IMG/VR virus record: IMGVR_UViG_3300045051_001398
Location: 1-62,678 of that record
Source of the DNA: a virus
Reading direction: 5' to 3' (one strand)
Length of the DNA: 62,678 nucleotides
Positions 1 to 62,678 of this stretch are shown here, piece after piece. The position numbers and the translations under genes are program-made. How positions within the stretch are numbered: the first letter of the stretch is position 1; every line of letters starts with the position of its first letter. The notes beneath the pieces were generated by a model, which had not been told where the DNA came from, ran no database searches, and was given only the letters and a program-made list of their open reading frames with translations.

Positions 1-872
1 AGATTCCGACCGAGTACGCAACCTTTACCAATGACACGGGAACACCCGTATCATTCTGGCAGGAAGTGATCGATAATGCTTTTGCTCTCGAAGGTGAAAA
101 CCTCAAAACAAAGGTGATGGATCCACCTTTGCCACCGCCTCCTCCCAATACTTCGTCAACACCTGAAGTCAATCCTGAAAAGATCAGGGAACTGACCTCT
201 GGAATGCTGAAACTCTCGGAAGAGAATGCGAACCTTAAAATGCAAATATCCCAGCAGGGATCAGAGATAGGATCGCTGCAGTTTGCCCTTAGCGAAAAGG
301 ACAAAGAGCTGCAATTCCTTAGGGATAACCCTGTAAAAGCAGCACAGGCATTTCCTCCGAGTGATGTACTCGGAACAATGGTTGCTATCATAGGCACCGG
401 TGTAATGAAGAACAAGGCAGTCATCACAATGGTTGCCGTAGAAAACCTCAATACGGTATCTGCAAAGATCGATGATTTTCCCACGCTCAGTGAATCGGGA
501 AACAAACCGATCCTTGAACTGGACATCGAACTGGGTAAAACCATTACACAGGCTTATTCCGAGAACGGAATCCGTATTCAGACCATTCAATCTTTCACCG
601 ACCAGTTGAAGGATATGGAAAAAGAATTAGCTAAAAAGGTCAAGAAGGCTTCTGCTCCTGAAGAAAAAGAGAAAAAGGATGAAAAGAAGAAAAAGACTGA
701 TCTTCCTGCAACTCCTGCACCGGCTCCCAGTCTGCCCGAGGAGTCGTTCATGGCGGGTGCTGCGACTCCACCGGACGAAGAAGAAGCGCCTTCTCCCAAA
801 TTACCTGATGACGAACCGCCTTCCGATGGTGTCGCACAGCGTATCGAAGGACTGAAAGACGAAAAATTCTGA
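1..872 (+). CDS. PRTRC system protein E-like, 5' end outside the window
   Basis: The reading frame is open from the first base, so the start lies upstream. A GTG at 66 is possible but the frame before it reads like coding sequence. Visible parts are a proline stretch (PPLPPPPP), a coiled coil of about 40 residues, a beta-rich block (VAIIGTGVMKNKAVITMVAV), a helix ending in QLKDMEKELAKKVKKA, a very Lys/Glu-rich linker and a Pro/acid-rich tail. The helix followed by a charged tail resembles PRTRC protein E, and the gene sits directly before a clear PRTRC C, as E does in plasmid cassettes. The function of E is not known. The E assignment is mostly by position and could be wrong; an unrelated coiled-coil protein is the alternative. 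Confidence 0.45.
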   Translation, partial: IPTEYATFTNDTGTPVSFWQEVIDNAFALEGENLKTKVMDPPLPPPPPNTSSTPEVNPEKIRELTSGMLKLSEENANLKMQISQQGSEIGSLQFALSEKDKELQFLRDNPVKAAQAFPPSDVLGTMVAIIGTGVMKNKAVITMVAVENLNTVSAKIDDFPTLSESGNKPILELDIELGKTITQAYSENGIRIQTIQSFTDQLKDMEKELAKKVKKASAPEEKEKKDEKKKKTDLPATPAPAPSLPEESFMAGAATPPDEEEAPSPKLPDDEPPSDGVAQRIEGLKDEKF

Positions 873-875
873 TCA

Positions 876-1073
876 ATGAGGCTGGAAAGGGTATTTGTCG
901 TCGGGGGTAAAGAGTTGAAAGATCCCGCCCCGACGGTTGGCGACATAAGCACGTTGAAAAAGCTTTTGTCTTCTGAAAATCCCGAAGTCCTGAACTGTTC
1001 GCATATAATAACGATCAAGGACAATAAGGAACGCTACGAGTTCTCGGCCGCAAAGGTCGGGACACACGGATAA
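876..1073 (+). CDS. PRTRC system protein C, ubiquitin-like
   Basis: This 65-residue protein starts 3 bases after the stop of the E-like gene. It begins with LERVFVVGGKELKDPAPT and ends with a strand pair and the tail KVGTHG. That is the pattern of PRTRC protein C: an early (L)xRVF strand, a G-x-E-L-x-DP turn, and a C-terminus close to VGTKG. The family has a predicted ubiquitin-like beta-grasp fold and is thought to be the modifier or carrier handled by the neighbouring ThiF/E1-like and B/E2-like proteins. The exposed C-terminal glycine fits adenylation by an E1, but no target is known. A strong terminator follows, so E and C may be made in excess over the downstream members. Confidence 0.8.
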   Translation: MRLERVFVVGGKELKDPAPTVGDISTLKKLLSSENPEVLNCSHIITIKDNKERYEFSAAKVGTHG

Positions 1074-1112
1074 AGTACAGGTTGCGGATGCTGTACTTAC
1101 GCACTGTACTTT
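1072..1112 (+). promoter_or_regulatory. Alternative hairpins after PRTRC C
   Basis: The segment AAAGTACAG (1072-1080) overlaps the PRTRC C stop. It can pair with CTGTACTT at 1091-1098 (8 bp) or with CTGTACTTT at 1104-1112 (9 bp). The two pairings exclude each other and lie directly before the terminator at 1115-1157. This resembles an attenuator or mRNA 3'-end element. A regulatory role is inference. Confidence 0.35.
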
Positions 1113-1114
1113 CA

Positions 1115-1157
1115 AGAAACGACGGGCTCCTGCAGGGAGTAGTCGTTTCTTTTTTTT
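1115..1157 (+). terminator. Rho-independent terminator after PRTRC C
   Basis: A 9-bp stem AGAAACGAC/GTCGTTTCT (1115-1123 with 1142-1150) encloses a smaller CTCC/GGAG hairpin and is followed by an unbroken T run to 1157. It separates E and C from the rest of the cassette. Confidence 0.8.
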
Positions 1158-1181
1158 GGTATAACTAAAAACTTTACAACA

Positions 1182-1451
1182 ATGAATCTGAAACTAAAAG
1201 AAAGAAAGGAATTTTTCCTTGTCAAGTCAATCATCGTGTTTGTAGGAAAAAAATTAAAATCCTCGCTGATGATTAACACCCGCCACGACCACCTCTTGAG
1301 TAAACAAGAACTCTACGACCTTATCCTGGATTCAGTACCGAGGGGAGAGACTCCGCAGAATGCCGTATGTTATCACTATCTGGTCAACGATGAACGCAAG
1401 TATCTCCAAACTACGGAAGTTATTACGGACTCAAAATTTACCGAACAATGA
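1182..1451 (+). CDS. Hypothetical protein, 89 aa
   Basis: A small basic N-terminal half is followed by a helix (LLSKQELYDLILDSVPRG) and a strand pair near the end. The start is an ATG 25 bases after the T run of the upstream terminator, and the stop overlaps the next gene by ATGA, which supports translation coupled to the HD-domain gene. No family is recognised. It lies inside the PRTRC cassette between C and F, a place where accessory genes are inserted, so a link to that system is possible but not shown. Confidence 0.6.
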   Translation: MNLKLKERKEFFLVKSIIVFVGKKLKSSLMINTRHDHLLSKQELYDLILDSVPRGETPQNAVCYHYLVNDERKYLQTTEVITDSKFTEQ

Positions 1452-1969
1452 GAATAGGAACAAAATCCCTGATCTTCGGGGCGCACCAGTTCCTGATCCA
1501 TCCGTTCTTCGTATTCCTGGGATGGTGGAAACTGTTCGGGTTTCCATGGGATCCCCGATTGTGGATTGCTTTTATCGTTCACGACTGGGGATACTGGGGA
1601 ATGAGATGGATCGACAGGGGAGAGGGAATACTTCACCCGTTTTTAGGCGCCAGAATCATGAGGGCACTTTTCGGAACCAAATGGTTTAAGTTTTGCGCTT
1701 TTCATTCCCGTGATGTGGCAGAAATCAATAGCGTAACACCGTCGAAGCTCTGTTACGCAGACAAGATGGCATTTGTCCTCGAACCAGGATGGCTGTATCT
1801 TCCCAGGGTAAAAGCATCGGGAGAGATACATGAATTCATGATTAACTGGCTTGTTAAAAAAGAAAAACTTCCTGATCTTATTAATGATGATATTCAGCAT
1901 ACATGGCATATACATGCAACAGAGCATACCCTTAAATGGTTAAAAGAAAATGAATGGAACGAACAATGA
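1448..1969 (+). CDS. HD-domain phosphohydrolase-like protein
   Basis: This 173-residue protein carries an ordered set of metal-ligand motifs of the HD superfamily: HDWGYWG near residue 42, HPFLGARI near 60, FHSRD near 83, and an Asp in LCYADKMAF near 101. Such enzymes hydrolyse phosphate bonds in nucleotides or signalling molecules; the substrate here cannot be read from sequence. The aromatic N-terminal segment before the HD motif is hydrophobic and could be buried core or a weak membrane contact. The gene overlaps both neighbours by ATGA, so it is translated with the PRTRC cassette. An HD enzyme is not a standard PRTRC member. Confidence 0.65.
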   Translation: MRIGTKSLIFGAHQFLIHPFFVFLGWWKLFGFPWDPRLWIAFIVHDWGYWGMRWIDRGEGILHPFLGARIMRALFGTKWFKFCAFHSRDVAEINSVTPSKLCYADKMAFVLEPGWLYLPRVKASGEIHEFMINWLVKKEKLPDLINDDIQHTWHIHATEHTLKWLKENEWNEQ

Positions 1970-2130
1970 AGTTTGCACAATACTGCGACTACCTTGCAAA
2001 GGCAAAAAAAGAAGGTACTGCGCCTCACCGGGATATCGCAGAAGAGATCATAAAAATTCTGGAAGGAACAGAGTCGGAAGATCTCCCGTGGAAAGACAAA
2101 CAACTCTTGAATATCTATCCAGAGCTGTGA
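1966..2130 (+). CDS. Hypothetical protein, 54 aa
   Basis: This short frame begins MKFAQYCDYLAKAKKEG and ends at a TGA that overlaps the GTG start of the next gene. It also overlaps the stop of the HD-domain gene by ATGA. Its composition (helical, acidic C-half, LPWKDKQLLNIYPEL) looks like a real small soluble protein, whereas the competing frame over the same bases is Arg-rich and unnatural. No family is recognised. Confidence 0.65.
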   Translation: MKFAQYCDYLAKAKKEGTAPHRDIAEEIIKILEGTESEDLPWKDKQLLNIYPEL

Positions 2131-3359
2131 CTTTTTTCAGGAAACTGAATAATTATTCCGAACACCTTCCAAAACAACAGGTTCCAATAAAAATAACAGG
2201 GATAAATCATATCCCTGTTCTCGGATTTGACAACCATGCGTATCTTCTTACCCAGTGTTTCTATGAATTAAGGCATAGGATGAAGGATATCGATATTGAT
2301 ATAAACAATCAATGGTGCAGTTCATCAAGAAGTTATTTCGAGAATTTTATCCGGGAAGAACTGGATACTGATGTCGAACTGTCATCCCATGGAGATGATA
2401 TCGTTATTGAAATAAAGTTTTTAACCGATGAACTTCAGTGGCTGATCCTTGAACTGGATTCATTTGATGATCTGGTTGAAAAGGATAGCCTCATGGCGCT
2501 TGCATACATGAAGATTCTCTCCATGATGAATTGCATCGACGCTTCATTTGATTTTGGCGCTGACAATTCGACTCATCCCGATTTTTCATATATGGAAGAA
2601 GTACTAATGGATCAATTGGATGGAGATGCAGTTGAAGATATGGAAAAAATGTATCATGAGATTTTAAAACAGACAAGGCGGGATTTCTACGGTTATCCTT
2701 ATCATTACGGAAAACTGGTTGAACAGCTTATGTTTTACGAATTTGATTTCGAGAAGTTCTTTGCATTGTTTGACGAGTATGAATGGGAATATAAAGATAT
2801 TTTCCGTCTCACACTTGAACTCTCACGGTGTGAGAATCCCATGTTGATTGCCACAAGAATTGCAAAAGACGAATCGGCGATAGTGGATATCAATATCGAT
2901 ATGGGCCCTTGGGTCTATGTTTGTTATAAAGAGTATTGGACTGAGTATCACACTCTCACTTCACTTGGAAATAAACTGGAATATACGCAGTCGTCTTTTG
3001 AAAACTGTGAGTTCAATGGGATTCATTTCGCTTTTACCATTCATCCTGCTCATCCGTTTCCGATGGATGTACTTACAAAAATTTCTAACGAATTAAAAAA
3101 TTCTGATTATGCTAAAACCTTATTCAGGTTGCAAGACCAGTGGTGCGCTTCGTTTCACAGGTACCAGACCAAGGAAACCAAACCACTTACTAATGATGTC
3201 ATCGAAAATTACTGTAAGAAAAATAATTGTTCTGTTTTCAGCTGGCTTAAGCCAGGAAATTACGATGGGAGAACTGGAGATCTTTCCAAGTGGAATTCCT
3301 TCCGGGATTTCAATACTCAATGGAATTACCATGAGAGAGATTGGCCGTTTACTGAATAA
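2127..3359 (+). CDS. PRTRC system protein F-like
   Basis: This 410-residue protein sits between C and B, the place of F in plasmid PRTRC cassettes. A GTG at 2127 is chosen because it makes a GTGA overlap with the upstream stop. The frame extends back to 1950, but that part (many Arg and Gly, reading across a better small gene) looks spurious. The protein is acidic and helical with many aromatics and no catalytic motif that I can name. F is known only as a conserved cassette member of unknown function. The last ~55 residues (NYCKKNNCSVFSWLKPG onward) overlap the start of B in another frame, which is unusually long. The F name rests on order and size rather than a diagnostic motif. Confidence 0.5.
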   Translation: MTFFRKLNNYSEHLPKQQVPIKITGINHIPVLGFDNHAYLLTQCFYELRHRMKDIDIDINNQWCSSSRSYFENFIREELDTDVELSSHGDDIVIEIKFLTDELQWLILELDSFDDLVEKDSLMALAYMKILSMMNCIDASFDFGADNSTHPDFSYMEEVLMDQLDGDAVEDMEKMYHEILKQTRRDFYGYPYHYGKLVEQLMFYEFDFEKFFALFDEYEWEYKDIFRLTLELSRCENPMLIATRIAKDESAIVDINIDMGPWVYVCYKEYWTEYHTLTSLGNKLEYTQSSFENCEFNGIHFAFTIHPAHPFPMDVLTKISNELKNSDYAKTLFRLQDQWCASFHRYQTKETKPLTNDVIENYCKKNNCSVFSWLKPGNYDGRTGDLSKWNSFRDFNTQWNYHERDWPFTE

Positions 3360-3924
3360 TATCAGTAACAGGAAATCCGATGAAATCAAAAAGCCGGCAG
3401 CGGGAATACTTCCCAAGGGAACACTGTTTTTTCATCATGACAGGCATCGGTTTGCCATGGTTTTTACTGTTGCTCCCGATCTTCGTACCATACAGGTATA
3501 CCAGCCTGACAAATCAAAAATCGATGTTGTCGTAGATATGCCGGAGCTATTGATTATCTTTCAGGCTCCTTCTACTATCAATGTACTGTGCGTTATCAAG
3601 GGAATGGTTCACATTCCCGCACTGAGAAACCTTGGAAGCGATGATGGACTGCTTTGCGTAGGCAATTGTCCGCTTCCCGTGTACGATGAAAGGACGCCTA
3701 TACAGATACGCAATTCCGTTCTTGAAACGATCTTTGACGGGGCATTCTCCGATGACATGAACTCGTTCGGTTTTTCCATGAACGAGTTCTCGGAGATACT
3801 TAAAAAGACCAAAGACCGAAAGGTAAACGTTACAAGAGAAGAATTCAGTGCACGGTGCAAAAATCTTAAGATCAACTATTGTCCGTTGATTGAGAAACTT
3901 GCCAATTCCTTCAGCAATGGATAA
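3193..3924 (+). CDS. PRTRC system protein B, E2-like
   Basis: PRTRC B belongs to a predicted prokaryotic E2-like family. The expected order of elements is present: an N-terminal strand (RKIIVLFSAG), a second strand (GELEIFPSG), the helix ITMREIGRLLNNIS, the block GILPKGTLFFHHDRHRF, two strands, and the conserved motif around GLLCVGNCPLP near the middle, whose Cys is the candidate thiol-ester residue. The start could be ATG 3193, 3196 or 3265. I prefer 3193 because the first strand precedes 3265, although 3265 has the better leader (AGGAAAT). The gene ends inside the start of ThiF (8-base overlap). With ThiF and C it makes an E1-E2-modifier set. Confidence 0.7.
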   Translation: MMSSKITVRKIIVLFSAGLSQEITMGELEIFPSGIPSGISILNGITMREIGRLLNNISNRKSDEIKKPAAGILPKGTLFFHHDRHRFAMVFTVAPDLRTIQVYQPDKSKIDVVVDMPELLIIFQAPSTINVLCVIKGMVHIPALRNLGSDDGLLCVGNCPLPVYDERTPIQIRNSVLETIFDGAFSDDMNSFGFSMNEFSEILKKTKDRKVNVTREEFSARCKNLKINYCPLIEKLANSFSNG

Positions 3925-4672
3925 GATTATTATCAAACTGGATGAGTACATCCTGAGAAATGTGCATCCGGTAACTATAATCGTCTACGGCGCGGGAGGA
4001 ACAGGATCACATCTCGTATGGCATCTGGCAAGGGTAAACGCCGCTCTTCTTATGATGGGACTCAAAGGTATCGATCTCTCTGTAGTGGATTTTGATTCCG
4101 TTGGCGCTACAACACCTGTGCGTGCCATGCTCAACTACAGCGGGATAGGATTTTCCAAAGCATTATCACTGGTATCGGGTATCAATGCTTCCTTTGGTAT
4201 CAAATGGAAAGCTTATCCCAGGTATATACGTTCTGCCGATTTCATTATACTGTGTACCGACACGGTAAGGTCAAGGCGAATGATACTTGATGAATATGTG
4301 AAGACAAGCAATTACAAGTATTACATCGACTGCGGCAACACATCGGATTCGGGTCAGATCATCCTTGGGACAAGTAAAAATGAATACCTCAACATGAAAA
4401 AATCCAGTAAATCATTCTGGTATGTTCCCGATTTTTTTGACATGTTCCCCGATGTGCAGGATGAAGATGTAAGGGAAAGTTGCAGCGTATTTGAATCAGT
4501 GCAGCGCCAGGGTATCTTTGTCAACAGCATTATCGCCAATCTTGCGGGTCAGATGATTTACGAGCTTCTGGCAGAACACGCGATAGATCATCATGGATAT
4601 TTCATGAACATGGAAAACGGATGGTCTAAGATTCCTGTCGAATTACGAAAACTTGAAAAGAAAAAGAAATGA
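3917..4672 (+). CDS. PRTRC system ThiF family protein, E1-like
   Basis: This 251-residue Rossmann-fold protein carries the nucleotide loop GAGGTGSHLVWHLARVN near residue 25. The strand and acidic pair LSVVDFDSV follow, then DCGNTSDSGQIILG and the block ESCSVFESVQRQGIFVNS. The last two are typical of the PRTRC branch rather than of MoeB or ThiF proper. The family is predicted to adenylate the C-terminal glycine of the ubiquitin-like partner, here protein C. The usual Asn and Arg-Gln after the acidic pair read T and RA here (TTPVRAML), so activity may be altered. ATG 3917 is used; a TTG at 3890 would add nine residues. The stop overlaps the next start by ATGA. Confidence 0.8.
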   Translation: MDKIIIKLDEYILRNVHPVTIIVYGAGGTGSHLVWHLARVNAALLMMGLKGIDLSVVDFDSVGATTPVRAMLNYSGIGFSKALSLVSGINASFGIKWKAYPRYIRSADFIILCTDTVRSRRMILDEYVKTSNYKYYIDCGNTSDSGQIILGTSKNEYLNMKKSSKSFWYVPDFFDMFPDVQDEDVRESCSVFESVQRQGIFVNSIIANLAGQMIYELLAEHAIDHHGYFMNMENGWSKIPVELRKLEKKKK

Positions 4673-5325
4673 AAATTCAGTACAAGGTCACAACGTGGAT
4701 AAATATAGAACTCGATGAGTCTGTAACCAGCGAGCAGATCCATGAAGTCATCGGCAAAGGCGCCGATATAGAAGATTTCAAGGATCTTGACGCTACGGAG
4801 GTCGAGGAAATAGTCGACCTCAGAACCTGCATGGCAGTCAAAGACAACGACTCTGCGTGTACCATTGAATGGCGGGATGACAACGGACGCATTATCTGGG
4901 ACAATGCCAATGGTTTTAACCAGCCCGAGGAAGAGATGGAAGACGATTATTTGCTGGAACTGGATAAAGTAAAGCATTCTTACCAGGCGATCATCCTTAA
5001 AGATCCTCCGATGATTGACTGTTTCTTTGCTTTTAATAATAAACAGTTCGAGGAAGGGATTGAAAAGTGCAATCTGCAGGGTAAGAAAATTTGTTCTCAC
5101 GCTGCAGGGCTCTATGGCACCAGGGAAGGAATCGAGAAATTCCTTGAAGGTTATGACAAACGCGACGAGATCATCAAAAAGAACTGCAATCCGCAGGATG
5201 TGTACAATTACGAGTATTACAACCATGAGTGCGATTACACCAATGATGATCGCAAAGTCCTTGACATTGTGGAACGTATTTTCGGTGAGAATGTAAAAAT
5301 AAAACGAAAATACGAGCAAGGATGA
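4669..5325 (+). CDS. DUF7659-like protein of Bacteroidota mobile elements
   Basis: A 218-residue acidic protein with two parts. The N-terminal ~100 residues are a charged domain with the conserved-looking DSACTIEWRDDNGRIIW. The C-terminal half has the run CFFAFNNKQFEEGIEKC, then AAGLYGTREGIEKFL, NPQDVYNYEYYNHEC and a final helix. The second part resembles a domain of unknown function common in Bacteroidota phages and plasmids, which I recall as DUF7659; the name is from memory. It is coupled to ThiF by a 4-base overlap and is the last gene of this operon before a terminator. Confidence 0.55.
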   Translation: MKIQYKVTTWINIELDESVTSEQIHEVIGKGADIEDFKDLDATEVEEIVDLRTCMAVKDNDSACTIEWRDDNGRIIWDNANGFNQPEEEMEDDYLLELDKVKHSYQAIILKDPPMIDCFFAFNNKQFEEGIEKCNLQGKKICSHAAGLYGTREGIEKFLEGYDKRDEIIKKNCNPQDVYNYEYYNHECDYTNDDRKVLDIVERIFGENVKIKRKYEQG

Positions 5326-5359: not shown

Positions 5360-5431
5360 TTGTTTACACGAGTTTTGATTAAACCATGTCTGCAATCCTG
5401 CTCTCCTTCCATGGGCAGGATTGTTTTTTTT
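5360..5431 (+). ncRNA. Possible small RNA with its own terminator
   Basis: The region between the -7 element at 5346 and the T run ending at 5431 has no coding sequence and finishes in a perfect intrinsic terminator. It could be an independent transcript of about 72 nt, or simply the 3' untranslated end of the PRTRC operon. No family was recognised. Confidence 0.25.
5393..5431 (+). terminator. Rho-independent terminator of the PRTRC operon
   Basis: A 9-bp perfect stem CAATCCTGC/GCAGGATTG (5393-5401 with 5415-5423) with a 13-base loop is followed by eight T. Confidence 0.85.
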
Positions 5432-5453
5432 GAATAATAAATAATCTATTTCT

Positions 5454-7152: not shown

Positions 7153-7478
7153 GAAAATGGAAGCCGAGCAAAAGCGCAAGGCGCGAATTTGCACAGAACA
7201 TGCAGAATGAGACATTTGCAAGTAATTATTACGCACGCAAAGAGGCCAGGGCAGAAAATCGCAGATCAACAAGCCAGTTTGATTATGAAACTGCAGGCGG
7301 GAATTATATCCCTACTCAATATCAGCATGATTTTTGCCTGGATCACTACGATCTTTTTAATACTCCAGAAAAGAGGAACGCCGCCAACATGGTTATGTCT
7401 GGATATTCCTGTCAGGATAAAGTACATCATGATTATATTCACATAGTAAATGAAATTATAAGGCATAATTCAATATGA
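7149..7478 (+). CDS. Hypothetical protein conserved-looking in Bacteroidota elements
   Basis: 109 residues: a basic N-terminal stretch with many Arg, then FDYETAGGNYIPTQYQHDF and the C-terminal block GYSCQDKVHHDYIHIVNEI with a His-Asp-His cluster that could bind metal. The style resembles small proteins shared among Bacteroidota phages, but I cannot name a family. It overlaps both neighbours by ATGA and is translated with the helicase. Confidence 0.6.
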   Translation: MRKWKPSKSARREFAQNMQNETFASNYYARKEARAENRRSTSQFDYETAGGNYIPTQYQHDFCLDHYDLFNTPEKRNAANMVMSGYSCQDKVHHDYIHIVNEIIRHNSI

Positions 7479-10400
7479 AAGAATGGAAATGGAGACCTTA
7501 CCAGGCTGATTGTCTTGAATCGGTCATTAATGGATTCAGAAAAGGGATTAATAAACAGCTTTGCGTACTCGCAACAGGATCAGGTAAGCGCAGTTTAGCG
7601 GTTTGGCTATCCGGAAGAACTGCTAAAACACTTTTTTATGCTCACAACGAAGAATTAATTGATCAGGCCTATGAGGACTTTTCAAGGATTTATGGCTTCA
7701 TGAATGTTGGTATTGTTAAAGGTCCACGTATGGAGATCGACAAGCGTTTTGTTGTTGCCTCTCCGCAAACCATGATCAACCGCCTGAATAAAGTGCCGAA
7801 GAACACTTTTTCTCTTGTACAAATAGATGAATGTTTTCCTATAGGAACTTTTATAGATGGAGTTCATATTAAGGATATACAAGTTGGAATGATGATTAAT
7901 TCATATAATCACTACACTAATACTATTGAAAAAAAAAAGGTATTATCCGTCTTTTCTAAATTATATGATGATGATTTTATTTCAATTGGGAATCAATTAA
8001 CAACAAAGAATCACCCGTATTATACTATAGAATATGGATATATTCCCGCATTGTTTCTTACTAAGATAAAACCTAATTTTATTTACAATTATAGTCAACT
8101 GCACAATTTGCAACAAGGAGTTTGTAATTCAAGGAAGCCGAATAAGTGTATACAAGAAATACGGAAATTCTTATTGTTCGAAAGAATGCTTGTTAATATC
8201 GAAACGTTTGAAACGAAAACCTATTATTGGGAACTGTTCAATATGTGGGAATCATGCCGAAGCCTGGACGAAATCCCAAAAAGCAAGATGGTATCAAAGT
8301 TTAAGGATTTATTGCACAAAAGAATGTGCATTGAAATCCAAACAAGATCGAATCAGGCTTATTCATCCGGATCTTCAAAAATGTTCAGAAAGGATGAAAA
8401 ACAACAATCCAATGAGCAATCCTTTAACTCTTCAAAAGATGAAGGACAAGTTAAAAGGAAGAACATTTTTGTCGCGTGGAGGGAATGGCCAAAAAACAAA
8501 ACAGCAAATCATCCTTCACAAGGCAATTGGATATCCTATGGAATATACAATTTTATGCAAACCTGCCTTTGGATTATTCGAAAGTCTGCCTTATTGTTAC
8601 AAGGTAGATCTTGCTATTCCGGAAGTCAAGTTGGCAATAGAAGTGGATGGAAAAACCCACAAACTAAAAAAGTGGAAATTCCTGGACAAAAGAAAAACAG
8701 AGATTTTAGCGGTTTTGGGTTGGGATGTGCTACGGTTTACAAACGAAGAAGTGGACAACGAATTGAAATCAGTACTGGAAAAAATATGGTTTACAATATC
8801 GAAGTTGAAGGAAACCAAAATTATTTCGTCGATGGAAAATTAGTCCACAATTGTCACAGGTATATGGCGCGTACCTTCCATGATTGCGTGAACCATTTCA
8901 ATGCCAAGCGCATCGGATGGACGGCGACTCCCCGCAGGCTTGACGGGTTATCCTTAATGGATCTGTTCGATGAAAAAATCTTTGAATACAATATCATCGA
9001 TGGAATCCGTGATGGTTTCTTGTGCGAATTGGATGGGATAAAAGTGAAAACTGAAATATCCCTGGACTCGGTAGGAAAGAAATTCGGCGACTTCAATGAA
9101 ACGCAGCTTGGTAATGTAGTCAACTGTCCCAGGCGCAATAACCTGATCGTTCAGTCTTACCTGAAATATGCAAGGGACAGACAGTTTATAGCTTTCTGCG
9201 TCAATACACAGCATGCTATTGATCTTAAATCTCATTTCGATGATTTGCAGATACCGGTAGAGATCATCTCTTCGGATACAACGGTCTGCCCTGACCGCAA
9301 GTATGCCATAGGCGCTTTCAAATGCAAATCCGTCAAGGGGCTGATCAATGTGAACATCCTTTGCCTTGATCTTGATACAGAAATCTTAACTAATTCAGGA
9401 TGGAAAAGACACGATCAGATGACCATGCAAGATAAGGTAGCCAATTGGAATTTTGATGGTAAAATATACTTTAAGGAACCAGAAGAGATAGTAAAACGCA
9501 ATTTGTATGATTTTGAAAACATGGTAAGCGTTAAATCTAAAACTTCAGATATTAGAGTTACAAATACCCATCGAATGATTTATATTAATTATTCAAATAC
9601 GAAAAATTCAATTTGGAAAAAGTGTCCGGCAAGTGAACTTGTTCAGAAAAACTGGTCATATCCTTTGGTTGGTATTGCAGAACCTAGTGATATACTTACT
9701 GAACAGAAATTTATCAGTAATCCATCAAGAAGAATTATTGCAAATGCTTATGCCTTGCGAAAGAATAATGGATTATCTAAAACCGAATCACTAAAAGTTG
9801 CAATAAAAAGATTAAATCGTAAATGCAATTTAAAATACAAAAACCCAAGTGAATTAACACTTGATGAATGCAGATTTATTGGGTTCTGGTTAGGAGATGG
9901 TTCAATAAATAGATTAAAAAGACAAGGAGTAGAGTATACTCTATGTCAATCAAAGGTTTATCCAAACATTGTAAATTATGTAGATAAGCTTATTAAAAAT
10001 ATTGGATTACACTCAATAAAAAGAGATAAGGGAGATTATTTTGTTTGGAGTCTTAATAGAGGAACTGGATTTATTGATTCAAAATTGGGATTATATTCAT
10101 ATGAACCCTATCTTGATAAAAATGGCAGTCAATTACTTTGGGGATTATCCCGTATTCAATTAGAGGCCTTAATTGAAGGATTATGGTTTGCGGATGGTTT
10201 ACATAGACAAGCAGAAAAAGTTCCTGAAACAAAATTAATTGGTTCTACATTTTATGAATTATTATCACTCTTACAGGCTGTTGCTGTTTGTCGTGGAATA
10301 AGTGCAAATATGTATTTAGGTTCCAATCATAAAGTCAAAGATTACTTTAAAAAACTTTGGTATATATCTTTTCAAAACAGGTCTTCAAGAGCATTATCTT

Positions 10401-11200
10401 CTAGTAAATCAGAAAATTTACTATCCAATGAGCCTTTTAAACAAGAACAGGTTTGGTGTGTAAAAACAGAAACGAAAAACATAATTACAAGAAGGAATGG
10501 TCGTGTTTGTATAATGGGTAATACCGAAGGATTCGATTACAGCGATGTAGGAGCCGTTCTAATGGCGCGTCCCACACAATCCGAAGTGATCTATTTTCAG
10601 GCTATCGGTAGGGGAACGCGTCTTAAGTCAGACGATTTCGAAAAGAAATTCGGCATCCGCAACTGTGTTATCCTCGACTTTGTGGACAATACCTCAAAAC
10701 ATAAACTGGTCAATACCTTTGAACTTGACAGGGGAAAAAGCGCCATTAACAAGGTTTTTGTCAAGAAAGAGGACCGTGAAAAGCTTCTCAATACCGAACG
10801 GCAGCGTTCCGAGCGCACTATCGATTCAGTGGTGCTGGAAGATAAAAAGATCAAACTGATCCAGCTTCCGGATATCAAGATCTTTGATTCTCCCAAAATG
10901 AATGATCCTGCAACGGACAAGCAGATAGCCTACCTCAGAAGACTGGGAATATGGGATGAATTTGATCCTGACGGAAATCCCATCTATTACACGAAACTCA
11001 TGGCCTCCGAAGCTATCAATGCAGCGCCCGCAGAGCCGGATATGATCGTTAAGCTGATCAATTGGGGATATAATCCCGAAGGGGCAACGGTAGGGCATTT
11101 CGGTATGATCAAAACCAAGATGGAGATCAGGGAAAACCTGTCGGGAAACAAATTTATACCGAAAGCGCCTCCGAATCCGATCATTGCAAAATACCGGTAG
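7475..11200 (+). CDS. SF2 DEAD/DEAH-type DNA helicase with two inteins
   Basis: The 1241-residue precursor contains a 514-residue helicase of the SSL2/RAD25-like kind and two inteins (7832-8851 and 9362-10522). Helicase motifs outside the inteins are: the N-terminal WRPYQADC motif; Walker A ATGSGKRS, with Arg where Thr or Ser is usual; motif II DECH, split after DE by intein 1; motif III GWTATP; motif V NIL-TEGFDYS, split by intein 2; and motif VI QAIGRGTRLK. After splicing the extein pieces are 119, 170 and 225 residues. The enzyme would unwind DNA during phage replication or recombination. Both inteins sit in the most conserved ATPase motifs, so the helicase cannot work until both are removed. 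It overlaps the upstream gene by ATGA. Confidence 0.85.
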   Translation: MKEWKWRPYQADCLESVINGFRKGINKQLCVLATGSGKRSLAVWLSGRTAKTLFYAHNEELIDQAYEDFSRIYGFMNVGIVKGPRMEIDKRFVVASPQTMINRLNKVPKNTFSLVQIDECFPIGTFIDGVHIKDIQVGMMINSYNHYTNTIEKKKVLSVFSKLYDDDFISIGNQLTTKNHPYYTIEYGYIPALFLTKIKPNFIYNYSQLHNLQQGVCNSRKPNKCIQEIRKFLLFERMLVNIETFETKTYYWELFNMWESCRSLDEIPKSKMVSKFKDLLHKRMCIEIQTRSNQAYSSGSSKMFRKDEKQQSNEQSFNSSKDEGQVKRKNIFVAWREWPKNKTANHPSQGNWISYGIYNFMQTCLWIIRKSALLLQGRSCYSGSQVGNRSGWKNPQTKKVEIPGQKKNRDFSGFGLGCATVYKRRSGQRIEISTGKNMVYNIEVEGNQNYFVDGKLVHNCHRYMARTFHDCVNHFNAKRIGWTATPRRLDGLSLMDLFDEKIFEYNIIDGIRDGFLCELDGIKVKTEISLDSVGKKFGDFNETQLGNVVNCPRRNNLIVQSYLKYARDRQFIAFCVNTQHAIDLKSHFDDLQIPVEIISSDTTVCPDRKYAIGAFKCKSVKGLINVNILCLDLDTEILTNSGWKRHDQMTMQDKVANWNFDGKIYFKEPEEIVKRNLYDFENMVSVKSKTSDIRVTNTHRMIYINYSNTKNSIWKKCPASELVQKNWSYPLVGIAEPSDILTEQKFISNPSRRIIANAYALRKNNGLSKTESLKVAIKRLNRKCNLKYKNPSELTLDECRFIGFWLGDGSINRLKRQGVEYTLCQSKVYPNIVNYVDKLIKNIGLHSIKRDKGDYFVWSLNRGTGFIDSKLGLYSYEPYLDKNGSQLLWGLSRIQLEALIEGLWFADGLHRQAEKVPETKLIGSTFYELLSLLQAVAVCRGISANMYLGSNHKVKDYFKKLWYISFQNRSSRALSSSKSENLLSNEPFKQEQVWCVKTETKNIITRRNGRVCIMGNTEGFDYSDVGAVLMARPTQSEVIYFQAIGRGTRLKSDDFEKKFGIRNCVILDFVDNTSKHKLVNTFELDRGKSAINKVFVKKEDREKLLNTERQRSERTIDSVVLEDKKIKLIQLPDIKIFDSPKMNDPATDKQIAYLRRLGIWDEFDPDGNPIYYTKLMASEAINAAPAEPDMIVKLINWGYNPEGATVGHFGMIKTKMEIRENLSGNKFIPKAPPNPIIAKYR
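7832..8851 (+). mobile_element. Intein 1, in helicase motif II (DE^CH)
   Basis: 340 residues from Cys1 (CFPIGTFIDG) to the terminal His-Asn, followed by Cys as first residue of the C-extein. Block A (CFPIGT), block B with NHPYYT, block F (VYNIEVEGNQNYFVDGK) and block G (VHN) are all present in one frame, so splicing should be possible. The middle ~230 codons in this frame are Ser/Arg/Gln-rich with no domain character, because the real endonuclease coding is in the +1 frame (separate entry). Base composition is more AT-rich than the helicase. Confidence 0.85.
8070..8843 (+). CDS. Intein 1 homing endonuclease coding, out of frame with the intein
   Basis: The +1 frame encodes a complete modular endonuclease: a zinc finger NCTICNKEF...YCSKEC, a second finger NCSICG...YCTKEC, a NUMOD3-like segment NPMSNPLTLQKMKDKLKG, and a Vsr/DUF559-like PD-(D/E)XK nuclease with KVDLAIPEVKLAIEVDGK and LGWDVLRFTNEEV. 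There is no ATG before the first finger; the first usable start, a TTG at 8190, would drop it. So this is best seen as the endonuclease domain of intein 1 displaced by one base near 8090-8100 and by a compensating base at the A6 run 8779-8784. Whether it is made by frameshifting or is a relic is unknown. Useful coding ends near 8781; the frame stops at 8843. Confidence 0.7.
   Translation, partial: NLILFTIIVNCTICNKEFVIQGSRISVYKKYGNSYCSKECLLISKRLKRKPIIGNCSICGNHAEAWTKSQKARWYQSLRIYCTKECALKSKQDRIRLIHPDLQKCSERMKNNNPMSNPLTLQKMKDKLKGRTFLSRGGNGQKTKQQIILHKAIGYPMEYTILCKPAFGLFESLPYCYKVDLAIPEVKLAIEVDGKTHKLKKWKFLDKRKTEILAVLGWDVLRFTNEEVDNELKSVLEKIWFTISKLKETKIISSMEN
9362..10522 (+). mobile_element. Intein 2 with LAGLIDADG endonuclease, in helicase motif V
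   Basis: 387 residues from Cys1 (CLDLDTEILTNSGW) to Gly-Asn (VCIMGN), with Thr as first C-extein residue. Block B has the TNTHRM motif. The penultimate residue is Gly in place of the usual His, a variant known in some inteins. An in-frame endonuclease has the paired LAGLIDADG motifs RFIGFWLGDGSI and EALIEGLWFADG, each followed by its catalytic acid. The insertion splits NIL^TEGFDYS of motif V. Composition is AT-rich compared with the helicase, consistent with a mobile insertion. Confidence 0.9.
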
Positions 11201-16866: not shown

Positions 16867-17177
16867 AAAAATTTGACCTGTTATTCCAGGCTCCTCATTT
16901 GAGAGAGAAAATCCAAAGAAAAATGGAGAAGGATAAGATCACAACCAAACAGCTCTGCGATGAAGCATCTGAATTGGGTGTAAAGGGACTTAATCCATCA
17001 TCCATGTCACGTTTTTTTTCCGACGACAAAGGAAAAAGAGAAGGAGCGATCACTCAGGGAGTACTGGTATACGTTATGATGAGGCTCGGACTGACCATTG
17101 ATATTTATATCAGGGACAGTCACGATCCCATGATTGAAGAAAAGGCAAAGATTTTTGCCAAGACTTATATCCTATGA
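16863..17177 (+). CDS. Hypothetical HTH-like protein
   Basis: 104 residues. The segment ITTKQLCDEASELGVKGLNP followed by SSMSRFFSDDKGKREGAIT resembles a Cro/CI-type helix-turn-helix, with a later helix GVLVYVMMRLGL as in XRE repressors. It overlaps both neighbours by ATGA. It may regulate early genes; the assignment is tentative. Confidence 0.45.
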   Translation: MKKFDLLFQAPHLREKIQRKMEKDKITTKQLCDEASELGVKGLNPSSMSRFFSDDKGKREGAITQGVLVYVMMRLGLTIDIYIRDSHDPMIEEKAKIFAKTYIL

Positions 17178-18022
17178 CTTTTAAAGAACTGAAAGATAAA
17201 TTTCTCAATTCACTGGAAGGTTACTCTATCAGGGAAAAAGTGTCCGAAGCAAGAAAAACGGGAATGGTATTTCCCGCACCCGACAAACTGTTTGCCGCTT
17301 TTGATGACGATCTTCTTCCCATCGAAAAAGTAAAAATCGTTATTGTAGGACAAGATCCTTACCCCACCCCCGGACAGGCCAATGGCTTTGCTTTTTCGAG
17401 CGATACGCTTCCCGTGCCCTACTCGCTGAAAGTGATCTTCGAGGAGATCCGCCGGCAGCTTTATCCCTACATGGGTCCGGATTCATTTGGTGCATCATTT
17501 GCAAGCGCCAACCTTATGCCATGGACCAGGCAGGGAATACTGCTTATGAACAGGATACTGACCGTTGAATCCGGAAAAGCCGAAAGCCATAAATCTTTCG
17601 GATGGCAGGTTTTCACCAATTCAGTCATCGCAGCTCTTGATGCAGACGATAACCCAAAGGTATTCATGCTCTGGGGAGCCAAGGCAAGGGATGTAAAACC
17701 GTTGATCGTTAATCCGAAACATCTTGTTCTTGAAGCCGGGCATCCTGCATCCGAAGCGTATGCTCCGGGAAAATTCACGGGTAATGATCATTTCATAAAA
17801 GCCGATGCTTTTCTGTATGATCACGGATTATTCGAGGATATTCCAATGAATCTGTCAGGTCTGATAACCGAAGAAGCGCTGTTCAATCATGTGCAGAATC
17901 TGATGATCACAAAACGGATTTGTGTACCGATTGATTCTGCGGATATGATGAAGAAAAAAATACGCAATCTTATGAATTTCAATTGTGTCAAAGTAATTGA
18001 TTACAGAACCGTTAATGTTTAA
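17174..18022 (+). CDS. ung: Uracil-DNA glycosylase, family 1-like
   Basis: 282 residues. The active-site motif is GQDPYPTPGQANGFAFS near residue 56, with the catalytic Asp present and Pro instead of the usual His after DPY. The NLMPWTRQGILLMN block, FMLWGAKA, and the DNA-intercalation loop GHPASEAYAPGKFTGNDHF (canonical HPSPLS altered to HPASEA) follow. The enzyme removes uracil from DNA. The last ~60 residues are an extra domain beyond the usual ~225-residue length. Several crAss-like phages carry this gene. It overlaps the upstream gene by ATGA. Confidence 0.85.
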   Translation: MTFKELKDKFLNSLEGYSIREKVSEARKTGMVFPAPDKLFAAFDDDLLPIEKVKIVIVGQDPYPTPGQANGFAFSSDTLPVPYSLKVIFEEIRRQLYPYMGPDSFGASFASANLMPWTRQGILLMNRILTVESGKAESHKSFGWQVFTNSVIAALDADDNPKVFMLWGAKARDVKPLIVNPKHLVLEAGHPASEAYAPGKFTGNDHFIKADAFLYDHGLFEDIPMNLSGLITEEALFNHVQNLMITKRICVPIDSADMMKKKIRNLMNFNCVKVIDYRTVNV

Positions 18023-22625: not shown

Positions 22626-25600
22626 TTATTTTTTAAGGAGTTTATCTATAAAATCACTCTCCTTTTTCATTCTGTCATGTACTCTTTCGAGACCTTTTCC
22701 CTTCCACATGTTCTCAACAGCATTGACCTGAGATTCCATATACGTTCCCTGCTGATACTGTTTATTTTCGAGTAGTCCGATCTGAATATTATACATTTTT
22801 TCAATGGTACTCTTCATTAACTCGATATCTGCATCCGTTGGTTCCCTGTCTTTGAATTGGATGGCAAAGGCATTTTCCACTTCCCTGACCACTTTTCCGA
22901 GAACCACGCCCCTGCGGTACTGATCCCCGTAAACATTATAAAGATCAATAAAAGATTTTGAAAAATAAGATCCTCCGATTGGATTGATCTTTGCCAGGTC
23001 GCCTATCCATTTGGATTGTCCTTCCACCCTTGCATACTGAGGCTGTGTTTCCTCGTATTTGGCATTAGTAAAGAAATCATATAAGAATTTACCCATATTG
23101 ACACCCATCATTACCGTAGGGGGAGTACGGAACGACATGGCTGAATTTGAATAATTGGTACCCTTGAAAGCATCCATATTGATCAGCATCGGTACTGTTC
23201 CTGCAGCTGGGAGCAAAAGATCAGCGGTAACTGCATTTACCACTTTCTGGAATCCTCCTGTGACATACAAAAAACTTCTTTCCCATGGAGTAAGTAGTTC
23301 ATAAGGAATTTCGCCACCTGTATTGCCTTTGTTTTTAAAAAACAACACGTTCCATTTGGCATTTTCAAGGGCCACCGAAAGCCAGTTCTCTCCCAGTTTT
23401 TTATACATGTCCTTATCGGGATCATCACCTCCCCTTAACAATCCGTGCTGAACAGCATACATCATCACCTGAAGAGCTACATTGATCAGGCCTCCGATAG
23501 AAGCCAGCGCAAGAATCCTGAGCGCCTTGTTTCTGTTTGCAATATCGGCTTCCGATAACAGGTAATGTTTTTTATTACCGTTCTTATCGATGGTGAAGTC
23601 ACGTTCCTTTTCCGCAAACAGGCTTTCCGCGGCCATGTAATTCCAGAACGAAATCATATTTTCATCCGCGATTACTGCATATCCGTTTACACCTTCAAGT
23701 TGTACGATCCTCGGATTGATCGCTTTTCCGTTGACAACAAGGTTTTCAGCGTGCTTTTCTGCCAGTTCCCTATTGTCAAAGCGTATGATATCGGCATTTT
23801 TATATGCTTTTTCAACTATTTCAATGCGTTTTTTCTTTGAAATCTGATTGATCGCCCAGAATGCCGTTACCCTTACAGCATCAGAGAGGGATTGGAGCAT
23901 TCCTTTCCTGAATTCGCCGTAATAGTTCACCCGTCCCCTTCCGAGATATTGTTCGGAAGCTGCAGTATACCATCCGAAGAAGAACTGACCTATCAGGGAA
24001 AAGAAAAGATTGTTCGCATACAGACTCCTGTTAAAACCGTAATCGCCGTGAAGAGCTGTTGTTACCGATTCAAGATGGTTAATCCTCTCATCAGACAAGG
24101 TTCTGTCAAAGGATATGGGATTACCATTTTTGTCATACATATTAAACTCTTCATCAGTCAGTGCATTGGTAAATGCTATACCCTGATTGATATGTTCGAT
24201 GATCTCAGTAGGCATGAACATAAACTTAATATAGGCACCAAATATTTCCTGTCCCTTGGTATAGTAAACATCATCAAGGATGGTGCCGATGTTTTCGTTT
24301 TTCATCATTTTGTTGATCTTGCCCATATTTCCCAGATATCTTGCAATTCCCTTGACAAACAAACGGTCTTTTTTATTAACTATATCCGATCCGATACCTG
24401 CAGCGAGGTTACCAACACCCGATATCAGGTTCTGCCCTAGAGAAACAACGGCTGTCCACGTGACAAAGAATCCTTTTGCTGCAGAGAATTCCATGTCGTC
24501 GATATTGTTCTGATGAAATATTTTAGTATCAATATATTCGGTGACATATTCCTTTGCCATCTCCACTTCTTTTTGCCGGTTAGCATACATGTTCTCTATG
24601 TATTCTGCATAAGGATGAATTTGTGCAGTATAATGATTGGCAATGACAGAATTAATATAATTAATGAATCCCTCATGTGTCTTCTTGCTATGCATGAGCT
24701 GATAAGGATTGTATTTGTTTGCCGGCCGGTATCTCCTTGAATTGGGTTTGTATACACTCTTGGCATCCTTGACAACTTTCATGATATAGGTAATTTTTTC
24801 AATCGAATCCTGGATGCGCTTCATTGACTCTTCTTCGGTATAATAATCCACCCTATCATTTTGCTGAGGAAGCGGGAGATCAGACTTCTCGAAAGCCATA
24901 TTTTCAAGGTTCTGTTTTGCCCTCGCGAGCATGGTATGCTGACGTATCGATGAATAACTTTTTGTTTCGCTCTGTCCTGCAAGTCTTGGAATATTGAAAC
25001 GGCTTCTTTCAAGATCGAAGCGTTCTTGTGCGTTAGCAGCGGACATCTTTCTGTCACGCAATCCCGAAGATACCCTGTTTTGCATATCCTGTAACGATTC
25101 CAGAAGAATTGCCTTATCGTAATTAGGCTTATACAGCGTTTCATCTTTCAGTAGTGTCCCGGAAAAGACATTTTTCCCGGATTTCAGAATATCATCTATC
25201 ATCTGCTGATAAATATCATAGACGGTCTGTATCCTGGTACCCAGTGAAAGATTGTAATTACGTACTGCATTGGAAAACCTGTAAGCTTTTAAATTGGTTG
25301 ATTCTCCCAGCTTATGCCAGTTTTTTTGATTTACATCAAGCCATGATTCATTTTGCTGAATGAATCTTTCCATGGCTTCTTCCATAAGAGCGTCCCCATC
25401 AATGAAAAAAGGATTAGCAAAACCTCCGAGTTGTTTATATAAATACGACTTGCCCATCCCCGGAGAGGCATAGATCAGATATCCTCTCTTTCGCGGCTTG
25501 AACAAAGCGTTAAACCTGATTCCTGACCGTTGGGCTATAGTTGTTTGTTTGACACGGATATATTCTCTGCGAAACAGATTATACCGGATCTCCTCAAATG

Positions 25601-28600
25601 ACATATGATTGAACTGCAGGTATTCAGGATTATCAGTTTCAAATACCATACCATCAATGGATTGCGGCTTAAAGATGTTATGAAGTTTCCTTGCCAGCTT
25701 CCCGAATTTCGTATAGGGTGTTGAAACCTGTATCTTTGACAGGTCGTACATTTTCCTGAGTTCATCGGCAAATTCCCCTGAAAATGCTGTATAGTTCCAT
25801 GTAGCCATCGGAAAAATATCAGGTGCAAAAGCCACTCCTTCATTGGCATATTCATAGACCGAACTGCGATACTTGAAGTCATATTTCATCATACTCTCCC
25901 TTAAAAATTCGATGTAGTCAAATCCTGCCTGGGAAAGTTTTCCGTCTTTTAAAAGATCAGCGGCTTCTGAAAGGGTGATCAGTATTCTGCGTCCGAACCA
26001 TGTACCAACAACTTCATATGGATTTATCTGCTCTTCGTAACCTTCTTCTTTCTTGGCGCCATACTCACGGATCATCACATTACGATCCTCGTCAGTAAGA
26101 AGTTCATTCAGTTTATCCAGTTTATCCCTTGTCATCCGGCTTTCGGCTATAATCTTGCGGTGAATGGTAAACGAAAGTTCATTCATCAGCATAATAGCAG
26201 GGTTCTCATTGGCATCGAATGATCTTGATCTTACGGTATTTTTGTGATATTCCTGAAGTCTTAACCATCCTGTTTTGAAACGGTGTCCGGTAAAAAGTTC
26301 AAAATTGATATCCTTGAGCCATCCGTTTTCAGGATTTGAAATAATCCTGTGCAGAAGATCTGTCCATGCCCTCACATCTTTATTGTTAGCCTGCTCATCA
26401 ATGATACCCAGCTGAAGGCGTTTGATCATCAATTGTGAAAGAACTGTATCATACAATCCCGATTTATTCACTCCGTCAAGCTGATCAATACGTTGGAAGA
26501 GGTCAATAAGGTAATCCATTTGTGATTCAATAGCAGACTTACCCGTAAGGTCCTCCGATAGTGTTTCATTAGTGATTTTTGCCTCAAAATCCTTTATCGT
26601 TCCCAGTTCCTCCCAGAGAGAGCGTGCATGTTCATAGTTCTTCCTGTAAGTCGAGTAAACCTTGTTATGATCGAGAAATGAGAAAGATTTGTAAATTTCT
26701 TCAATTTTGCTGGTTTCATTTTTCTTGGATATATTTTTCTCAACTTCATCATAACTGGTAAGCATATTACCGGTATAGAAGCTGTGAATGATCGTATTGT
26801 AGAAATAGTTATTCGTTCCGATCAACTTATACCCTGGAGATTCTTCAGTCAGTCTGCGGATTACATCATCATGAAGGGCTTCAGTCGTTTTCTTTCCCCA
26901 CTTCTTCTGACGTTCTTCGGGTATCATTTGCAACTGTTCCTGAATCATCAAAGACTGACGCTTTTTAATGAGATCCTGACGATAAGCTTCTACTCTTTCC
27001 TTTGTAATCCGATACTTTTCCTTTGTCTTTTCATCGATCCAGTACATATTTCGAATCATATGCAGTGACAACATATCCAGTCCTGTAATCTTGTCATCGG
27101 AATAGATATCGTCATAGGTCCAGTCAAGATCATTGTCATTTATCACGTCACTGACCATGTGGTGATAACCGATATTGATGGCTGAACCGATCTGTGAAGT
27201 GGTTACAAGGGAAGGATCAGTAACATTGAATCGTTCCCTGACAAAATCTATTGCTCTGGCAGCTGCAGTCCTGGCTACCCTTAGTTTACGATCGGTCTTT
27301 CTGGACAGGTCCTGAGTGACCGGAAGAGCTGCATTTTTCTTCTGGCGTGTCAGTTCACGGATCCTTTTGGCAGCTTCATAGGTTGATCTGCGGTCTTCGG
27401 GATTAAAATCATGAGTGACAGTCCTGGGTGATATAGTGATATCGACAGGCGAACCGCCCTTATCCGTGTTGATCTTGACCGGAAGGATTTGCATGCCTCC
27501 CTTGATCCTCATCTTACGGATCGTGCCATCATCTCTCCTCGTGGTTCCCAGAAGCCATGAATAGATTGATAACTGCAACTTGTGCTTCCTCATCTTGGAA
27601 GCGCCCCCGTAATGTGCAAACGGACTTCCTGCCTTGAACGATCCTCTTGATTTGGTATAGTCATTAGTCATTTTATCATTTTCATCAAACACATCAGCGG
27701 TTGAACTCTTTACATCAATGATTACATGTTCACCATTGACATACTCAATCATAACATCCGGCCGGCCGTATATGCCAAACTCAGCATTGTAAAGCTCATG
27801 TTCGGTGTATACCCTTTTAACCTTTGGATCACTCTTCCATATATTTAACTGGTCATTGATTGCCTTGATAACCTTTTTCCATCCATCTCCGGAGAATACT
27901 TCCCCTAATGGAAATAACAATCCATTAAAATCAAACAACGGAGATCCGGAAACCTCTTTTGAGTGTTGCTCGTCGAGATAAACTTTTCCTGTTGCATCAT
28001 CCCAATATAGATCGCCTTTGTTGAGCATATTAAAAACAGCAGATACAGCCGTTCCGTTCTTGCGTGTTTCATTGGCTTCACGTTTCATCAGCGTGAGGAA
28101 ATCACTGAAATTGTCGAGTGTGGCTTCAATCTCGGGAGTGATCTGAACCTCCGCATTCTTCAGTTTCTCTCCCTTCTTGCGAAGATCACGGTACTGTTCA
28201 AACTGACTGCGCATGGCCTTTTCAAAATCGGCAGCATCTTCAGAGAACTTTTCAATGATCCTCGAAGCGCTAAACACGGTCTTTCCTGCTGCATCCGTAT
28301 CAAGCGGGAATGATTCGGAAGGAATATCGGCCCATGCTCCCCTGTTGATCTTCATGTGCCTGACAGCGATCTTTGCCATGGCATCTTCACTGATTCCCGC
28401 ATGGTTATTCCATACTTCCCATGCAAAATGTTCTATTGCCGTTTTAAGTCTGTAATCAGCCAGTTCGGTCTTTGCCATCTTCGAGAACAAGGCCTTGACA
28501 GCAAGCCAGAATTCTTTCAGCGCTGCCTTGAATCCCGGTTTATTTATCTCCTGCTCGTCGGTGAATGACTGGCTTCCTGCCTGCCCTACATATTTGACTG

Positions 28601-42956: not shown

Positions 42957-43442
42957 TTATTCTGTTAAATTATTTAAATCAATGCCTATTGCAAGGAGTT
43001 TTTCTGCCTCCTCTGCAGTAAATACCATTTCGCCATTGGATACGGCCACCGGTACATCACCGCCACCTTGTGCAATTCCTGTACCTCCGAGATATTTATC
43101 CCTGATCTGTTTTGCCAGTTTGGCATATTTCTTCGGAATAACCATATCTCCGCTGTTAAGTGTTGTCTTGACAGAATCCGAAGTGCCGTCACCCGGGCCC
43201 TTTACAATACCACCCTTTGCCATCTTCTGATAATAGAGATCGGCAGCTTTTGATATCTCTGCCTGTTTCTGCAGTGCAAGTTGCCGTTTAGCCTCGTCAT
43301 AAGCCTGACCGCCCTTGATAAATTCGCTGACAATACCCACGGCGCCTCCCACTGCAGCACCTATAGGACCTCCTATGGATGCACCTGTTGCAGCCATGTC
43401 TCCCACATTTACCAAACTGTTTGTAATATCAGTACCGCTCAT
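42957..43442 (-). CDS. Gly-rich virion-internal protein, 161 aa
   Basis: The N-terminus holds a Gly zipper-like stretch (ATGASIGGPIGAAVGGAVGI) that could insert in a membrane. A helix (AKRQLALQKQAEISKAADLY) and a C-terminal region with two related segments follow (GGIVKGPGDGTSDSVKTTLN and GGGDVPVAVSNGEMVFTAEE). The latter look like the GPGxxTSDSIPxxLSxGE motif of phage tape-measure and internal proteins. It overlaps the muzzle-like gene by 14 bases. Likely ejected with the DNA or packed near the tail. Confidence 0.55.
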   Translation of the reverse strand: MSGTDITNSLVNVGDMAATGASIGGPIGAAVGGAVGIVSEFIKGGQAYDEAKRQLALQKQAEISKAADLYYQKMAKGGIVKGPGDGTSDSVKTTLNSGDMVIPKKYAKLAKQIRDKYLGGTGIAQGGGDVPVAVSNGEMVFTAEEAEKLLAIGIDLNNLTE

Positions 43443-62654: not shown

Positions 62655-62678
62655 TTTGTGCTTTTTTTAGGTTTAACA

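Follow-up and report, generated by a model that had tools for sequence, protein, structure and literature searches.

Does a crAss-like phage carry genes for ubiquitin-like protein conjugation, and what would such a system do for a virus? The question is raised by the start of IMG/VR virus record IMGVR_UViG_3300045051_001398, a linear record of 62,678 b that was analyzed whole (G000; hereafter, the window). Its plus strand encodes, from 3 to 5325 and in this order, an E-like protein, C, an 89-aa protein, an HD-like protein, a 54-aa protein, an F-like protein, B, ThiF, and a DUF7659 protein. A preliminary description had recognized E-like, C, F-like, B, and ThiF genes of a PRTRC system here in the plasmid order. 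The core of that observation holds and the claim as a whole is partly confirmed: ThiF, C, B, and the order stand, whereas the sequence does not suffice to establish E and F. The cassette is a divergent Bacteroidota-type PRTRC variant. Because two parts of the strict definition (ParB-related, ThiF-related cassette) are missing, it is classed here as a variant lacking ParB and A and not as a full PRTRC system. Its features are the following.

3-872, plus strand: E-like gene, truncated at its 5' end by the window edge, compared by hhalign
876-1073, plus strand: PRTRC protein C (Prok_Ub, TIGR03738, C-terminal Gly)
1114-1158, plus strand: intrinsic terminator 3' of C (RNA fold -24.3 kcal/mol, z -5.1, then a T run)
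1182-1451, plus strand: 89-aa open reading frame (ORF) of no family, opening the second transcription unit, with a 4-b overlap with the next gene
1448-1969, plus strand: HD-like protein, 173 aa, conserved H, HD, H, H, D pattern
1966-2130, plus strand: 54-aa ORF whose start and stop overlap the neighboring genes
2127-3359, plus strand: F-like gene, 410 aa, GTG start, placed by position and length
about 3193-3924, plus strand: PRTRC protein B, E2-like, by profile comparison; Cys155 at 3655-3657
3917-4672, plus strand: PRTRC ThiF, E1-like, above the TIGR03736 cut-off
4669-5325, plus strand: 218-aa protein encoded at the end of the operon (Pfam DUF7659, 42.6 bits; cut-off 27)
5392-5432, plus strand: intrinsic terminator closing the enzyme operon (RNA fold -19.6 kcal/mol, z -3.2, T run)

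The order E-C-F-B-ThiF is present, with E and F placed by position, and is interrupted between C and the F-like gene by three additional genes (89, 173, and 54 aa) and a strong terminator. Because terminators follow both C and the DUF7659 gene, E-C and the operon that runs from the 89-aa gene through the HD-like, 54-aa, F-like, B, ThiF, and DUF7659 genes are predicted to be separate transcription units. The genes of the second unit are joined by start-stop overlaps.

ThiF and C are the best-supported parts. ThiF scores 163.2 bits with the NCBI model TIGR03736 (PRTRC_ThiF), above the cut-off of 144.75, and is 32% identical to the ThiF of PRTRC cassettes on Bacteroidota mobile elements. Its ORF opens at TTG 3890, from which residues are numbered here, and ATG 3917 agrees with the family start. 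The protein retains GxGGxG at 34-39, D67, D69, R78, K90, D124, and C198, all of them essentially invariant in the family. C is a 65-aa ubiquitin-like modifier whose last Lys stands before the tail VGTHG, and the codon for its C-terminal glycine lies at 1068-1070. C passes the Pfam Prok_Ub model (26.3 bits; cut-off 25) and falls under the cut-off of TIGR03738 (24.3 bits, E 2.5e-5; cut-off 45.95). It is also detected by a profile built for this analysis on PRTRC loci (E 2.8e-11). The hhalign scores of C, B, E, and F were each judged against the maximum from shuffled sequences, and that of C is 57.1 against 15.5. Among 102 C proteins, the C-terminal Gly is present in 96% and G62 in 99%. Thus, of the PRTRC profile matches expected from the preliminary description, that of ThiF was borne out, that of C stayed below the family cut-off, and B, E, and F had no hmmscan match.

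B was recognized by profile comparison. Aligned to the PRTRC B profile by hhalign, it scores 40.0 (E 3e-5), whereas shuffled sequences reach at most 20.5; it has no direct match in scans of NCBI (TIGR03737 / Prok-E2_D) or Pfam hidden Markov models (HMMs). The alignment runs through the invariant Cys, and B retains P117, N146, and C155, which are invariant across 55 sequences. Its start is uncertain and may be the ATG at 3193, 3196, or 3265. The E2 fold of B is putative and follows the assignment of the family in print (Iyer et al. 2006; NCBI name E2 ligase family D). AlphaFold2 models gave a mean predicted local distance difference test score of 79 for the window B and 89 for a canonical Phocaeicola B. 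E2 enzymes appear only among the weak Foldseek matches, for window B and canonical B alike. Against viral models, the top Foldseek matches of window B are of B-like length and nameless. Judged by these conserved residues, the parts that would serve activation and transfer are present, in a divergent copy.

The carrier is a genuine crAss-like phage, and on this point the preliminary description is upheld. Two minus-strand genes of the window mark it.

43429-47337, minus strand: Crassvirus muzzle protein (Pfam PF25731, 118.4 bits; cut-off 27)
22626-40016, minus strand: giant protein of 5796 aa with SDFDGDQR (DFDGD) at residue 2997, of the virion RNA polymerase type

A motif of the DxDGD kind marks crAss RNA polymerase (written DxDxD in PMC7886860). 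The giant protein also contains an ADP-ribosyltransferase-like stretch (ART-PolyVal, 30.8 bits, just under the cut-off of 31.2). Neither it nor the major capsid protein has a sequence match in the PDB. The two-arm layout of the genome is consistent with a crAss-like phage. A second contig, IMGVR_UViG_3300045051_001472 (G001; 26,437 b), overlaps the window at 1-281 (98.2%) and at 62426-62678 (99.6%), and joined at both overlaps they would form a circle of about 88,581 b. G001 carries terminase- and portal-type genes, judged by position and length. By tblastn, its terminase, a candidate member of the crAss-like clade, matches those of the crAss-like phages cr124_1 (E 3e-6) and cr131_1 (E 9e-6). 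The E-like gene runs from G001 into the window, and the end of the cassette is in this way tied to phage genes by two contigs. Because the overlaps contain mismatches, G000 and G001 may come from two closely related strains and not from a single genome. With the HD-like protein, primase, and portal as queries, G001 was the only relative to come up. A FISUMP-like gene (51477-52205), which we take to be such from our own reading, is presumably consistent with a Bacteroidota host.

Several points weigh against a functional PRTRC variant at this locus. B lacks the His that is kept at 90% or more in the family; a His C-terminal to the cysteine is "absolutely conserved" in this E2 type according to Iyer et al. 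2006 (PMC1779556). Foldseek gave window B no PDB match at E <= 0.001, a result that is uninformative since the canonical Phocaeicola B control likewise had none. ThiF lies on a long branch (1.63) and departs at N75T, Q79A, and the N-terminal His from positions that are 98-99% conserved. The E-like gene starts 133 b further left on G001 (L013:414) and encodes about 334 aa in full, with a coiled-coil N-terminal part and an E-like C-terminal half. Its hhalign score to PRTRC E is weak (24.0 against a shuffle maximum of 19.7, E 0.0034) and it has no hmmscan match to TIGR03741, so that the assignment as E is suggestive only. The F-like gene scores 18.6 by hhalign, below the shuffle maximum of 23.1, and has no hmmscan match to TIGR03742; neither HMM, hhalign, nor clustering establishes its identity as F. 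The name F-like is given by position, length, and order, with no sequence support. An ORF of 250-560 aa stands directly before B in 152 loci, and the F-like gene matches it in place and length. The two main F clusters of accepted cassettes barely match one another, indicating that F is fast-evolving, and fast evolution was remarked for the helical protein of class 6d operons by Iyer et al. 2006 (PMC1779556). Lastly, the literature searched contains no conjugation by any PRTRC system, and no biochemical or experimental study of PRTRC was found in it.

The closest known counterparts are the Bacteroidota PRTRC cassettes, such as those of a Parabacteroides distasonis plasmid (NZ_OY725769) and a Tunicatimonas pelagia plasmid (NZ_CP120684). 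These share the order E-C-F-B-ThiF and have neither A nor ParB. Compared with them, the window has the three extra genes and the terminator between C and F, E and F that are unrecognizable by sequence, a B without the conserved His, and a crAss-like phage as carrier. The Tunicatimonas plasmid, the best ThiF match by E-value, also encodes a second ubiquitin-like system several kb away (multiubiquitin/ThiF/DUF6527, L011:31489-33689). The canonical PRTRC of Proteobacteria plasmids (Cupriavidus EM10 plasmid; class 6d of Iyer et al. 2006) shares the ubiquitin-like protein, the E1, the E2-like protein, and the fast-evolving helical protein, and differs in possessing ParB and the JAB peptidase A. As noted in the preliminary description, A and ParB are not seen in the window, and they are absent also from G001, the contig that continues it: neither contig has a Prok-JAB or a ParB_N match, with positive results in control phages and controls, respectively. 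That absence had been treated as significant. Because 61 of 80 bacterial loci show E-C-F-B-ThiF without either gene, it is the ordinary state of Bacteroidota cassettes and not a special loss.

Carriage by a phage had likewise seemed special, PRTRC systems being known from plasmids and integrative elements. This view does not survive the survey of other viruses. An alignment-based scan of IMG/VR found at least 132 contigs with a PRTRC-type ThiF relative; the window ThiF as a lone query had no match in IMG/VR, and an alignment query was required. Eighty of the 132 were kept for locus comparison. In these, the ordered set of E, C, B, and ThiF is seen repeatedly, and A is present in most of the Proteobacteria-type records. 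An isolated phage, Burkholderia phage BgVeeders33 (OK665841), has an E-C-F-B-A-ThiF cassette annotated as hypothetical proteins and a dinucleotide-utilizing enzyme. Its terminase is common to 30 of 50 records tested, and its capsid protein has a match in 1 of 50, in a set partly different from the one tested for the terminase. BgVeeders33 and the related IMG/VR phages share with the window a tailed phage carrier and a cassette adjoining replication genes. BgVeeders33 differs in being a Proteobacteria phage with a tail sheath, in having the JAB protein A, and in not being crAss-like. A tblastn search of 50,697 deposited phage records matched ThiF only in BgVeeders33 and two unverified short faecal scaffolds (MT835919 and MT839883), which were not counted as phage evidence. 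A Mu identity of the BgVeeders33-like records is unsupported by a Mu portal search, which matched nowhere and so proves little.

Two further records combine a PRTRC cassette with a crAss muzzle gene. One, G028, has a muzzle score of 114 bits and an integrase, and the other, G039, a muzzle score of 76 bits and ParA. G028 (L185, 47000-66975) is a record named for an isolate genome that contains a tyrosine integrase, a full muzzle protein, and the cassette, and is apparently a crAss-related prophage. G039 is a 139-kb record with ParA at L183:14779-15588 and hints at a crAss-related phage-plasmid. Some of the other IMG/VR contigs may be conjugative elements miscalled as viral, as not all were sorted. 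The window cassette is one instance of a wider, apparently unreported occurrence of PRTRC on phages. Literature searches gave no account of phage-borne PRTRC, a provisional result given the many subscription papers outside the coverage, and two crAss genome papers mention neither PRTRC, ThiF, nor ubiquitin.

As a whole, the locus is probably best explained as an early-expressed ubiquitin-like conjugation module, a divergent PRTRC variant without its own deconjugase. The mechanism proposed here is inferred from family residues. Using ATP, ThiF would activate C at its C-terminal glycine. Activated C would then move to Cys155 of the E2-like B, probably via Cys198 of ThiF, and B would join C to lysines of target proteins, with E and F perhaps selecting or bridging the targets. 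With no JAB peptidase on either contig, removal of C would depend on the host or be absent. Because E-C and the enzyme operon appear to be transcribed separately, modifier and enzymes could be produced in different amounts. Since the cassette stands among early genes and is found again on other mobile elements that replicate, the module would most likely act early in infection, by modifying proteins of replication or host takeover. It is on the same strand as the helicase, primase-helicase, and uracil-DNA glycosylase genes, with the virion genes on the opposite strand. In other phages, by ORF reading, it lies near DnaB, primase, sliding clamp, or dCTP deaminase. As the early genes of phages mostly serve replication in any case, this position is context and not proof.

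A ubiquitin-like protein is likewise encoded by lambda, whose tail assembly protein I accompanies the JAB/NlpC protein K (Iyer et al. 2006). The lambda genes stand in a tail cluster without E1 or E2, whereas those of the window belong to the early arm, where E1 and E2-like genes accompany them. The early-arm position counts against a role in virion assembly and fits replication or takeover better than a lambda-like tail assembly function. A more tentative proposal is that a virulent crAss-like phage with working ubiquitin-like conjugation tags host or replication proteins, and that tailed phages, plasmids, and conjugative elements have protein tagging in common, a tool so far overlooked. Bacterial ubiquitin-like conjugation has so far been linked mainly to anti-phage defense. 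Phage-encoded ubiquitin-like, E1-like, and E2-like parts reverse this picture, as the same chemistry may serve the invader. BgVeeders33 and the apparent G028 prophage make PRTRC function directly testable.

The alternative that survives best, itself rather unlikely, is counter-defense or superinfection exclusion, in which the cassette would tag the proteins of competing phages in the manner of Bil, or tag or decoy host defense proteins. The ubiquitin-like protein, E1, and E2 of Bil hinder phage assembly (as described in PMC12135933), and CBASS likewise uses E1-E2 conjugation (PMC10097602). PRTRC cassettes are also mobile, with a patchy distribution over phages, plasmids, and chromosomal elements. 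Bil and CBASS type II share the logic of bacterial ubiquitin-like conjugation with the window cassette. The window, however, has ThiF and B as separate proteins where PADLOC models E1-E2 proteins, and it has no deconjugase and no nucleotide cyclase. Bil combines E1, E2, a ubiquitin-like protein, and a deconjugase; the window has no JAB and no noteworthy match to a Bil or E1-E2 model. In PADLOC, ThiF has only weak E1-E2 matches (E 0.0026), B is at chance level, and C and F have none. No defense island was seen around the cassette.

Somewhat less probable still is a partition or episome-maintenance module, with the phage persisting in a plasmid-like carrier state. The PRTRC of Proteobacteria plasmids includes ParB, and the two PRTRC-positive crAss-muzzle records have ParA (G039) and an integrase (G028). 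Against this, Bacteroidota cassettes are mostly without ParB, and neither G000 nor G001 has ParB, a ParA-type AAA_31, or a tyrosine integrase (Phage_integrase); other phages or control genomes were positive in the searches for the last two.

Decay is improbable. The long ThiF branch, the changes at conserved positions, and the missing His of B would be expected if C, ThiF, and B diverged in an inactive remnant, but every frame is open, no start-stop overlap or terminator is broken, and the proteins still have the catalytic Cys residues, the nucleotide-binding loop, and the C-terminal Gly. By far the least probable is an assembly artifact that fused a plasmid cassette to a phage contig, which the preliminary description had named as one outcome that would undo its claim: PRTRC is best known from plasmids and G001 covers only 281 b of the cassette side, yet misassembly is unlikely because on G001 the E gene is linked to terminase and portal genes of a phage, the guanine-cytosine content and strand are continuous, and the same cassette occurs in two other crAss-muzzle records.

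Within the three-gene insertion, the HD-like protein had been put forward as a companion of the cassette. It has no Pfam match. It is found also in phages and in Deinococcus and Thermobacillus plasmids, with 45-47% identity for the best tblastn matches, and H13, H18, H45-D46, H63, H86, and D105 are invariant in the alignment. Since a single Deinococcus plasmid is the only place where it lies close to PRTRC genes, a PRTRC partnership was rejected; the family occurs on other phages and plasmids and is not a consistent partner.

Other genes of the early arm are also of note. The ResIII helicase ORF (7475-11200) apparently contains two intein insertions. Inside the first of these, in another frame, lies a complete ORF for a DUF559 (Vsr-like) endonuclease (8190-8843, 50 bits), an apparent nested homing endonuclease. 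The uracil-DNA glycosylase family gene is at 17174-18022 (Pfam UDG, 35.6 bits). On G001, an ORF just upstream of the E gene (L013:750-1706) has a weak, below-cut-off match to DUF3871, a family described from Bacteroides. The early arm of G001 further encodes a short radical-SAM protein (L013:3297-3773) and a protein of regular ISGDAQIYGNA-type repeats (L013:6596-7270).

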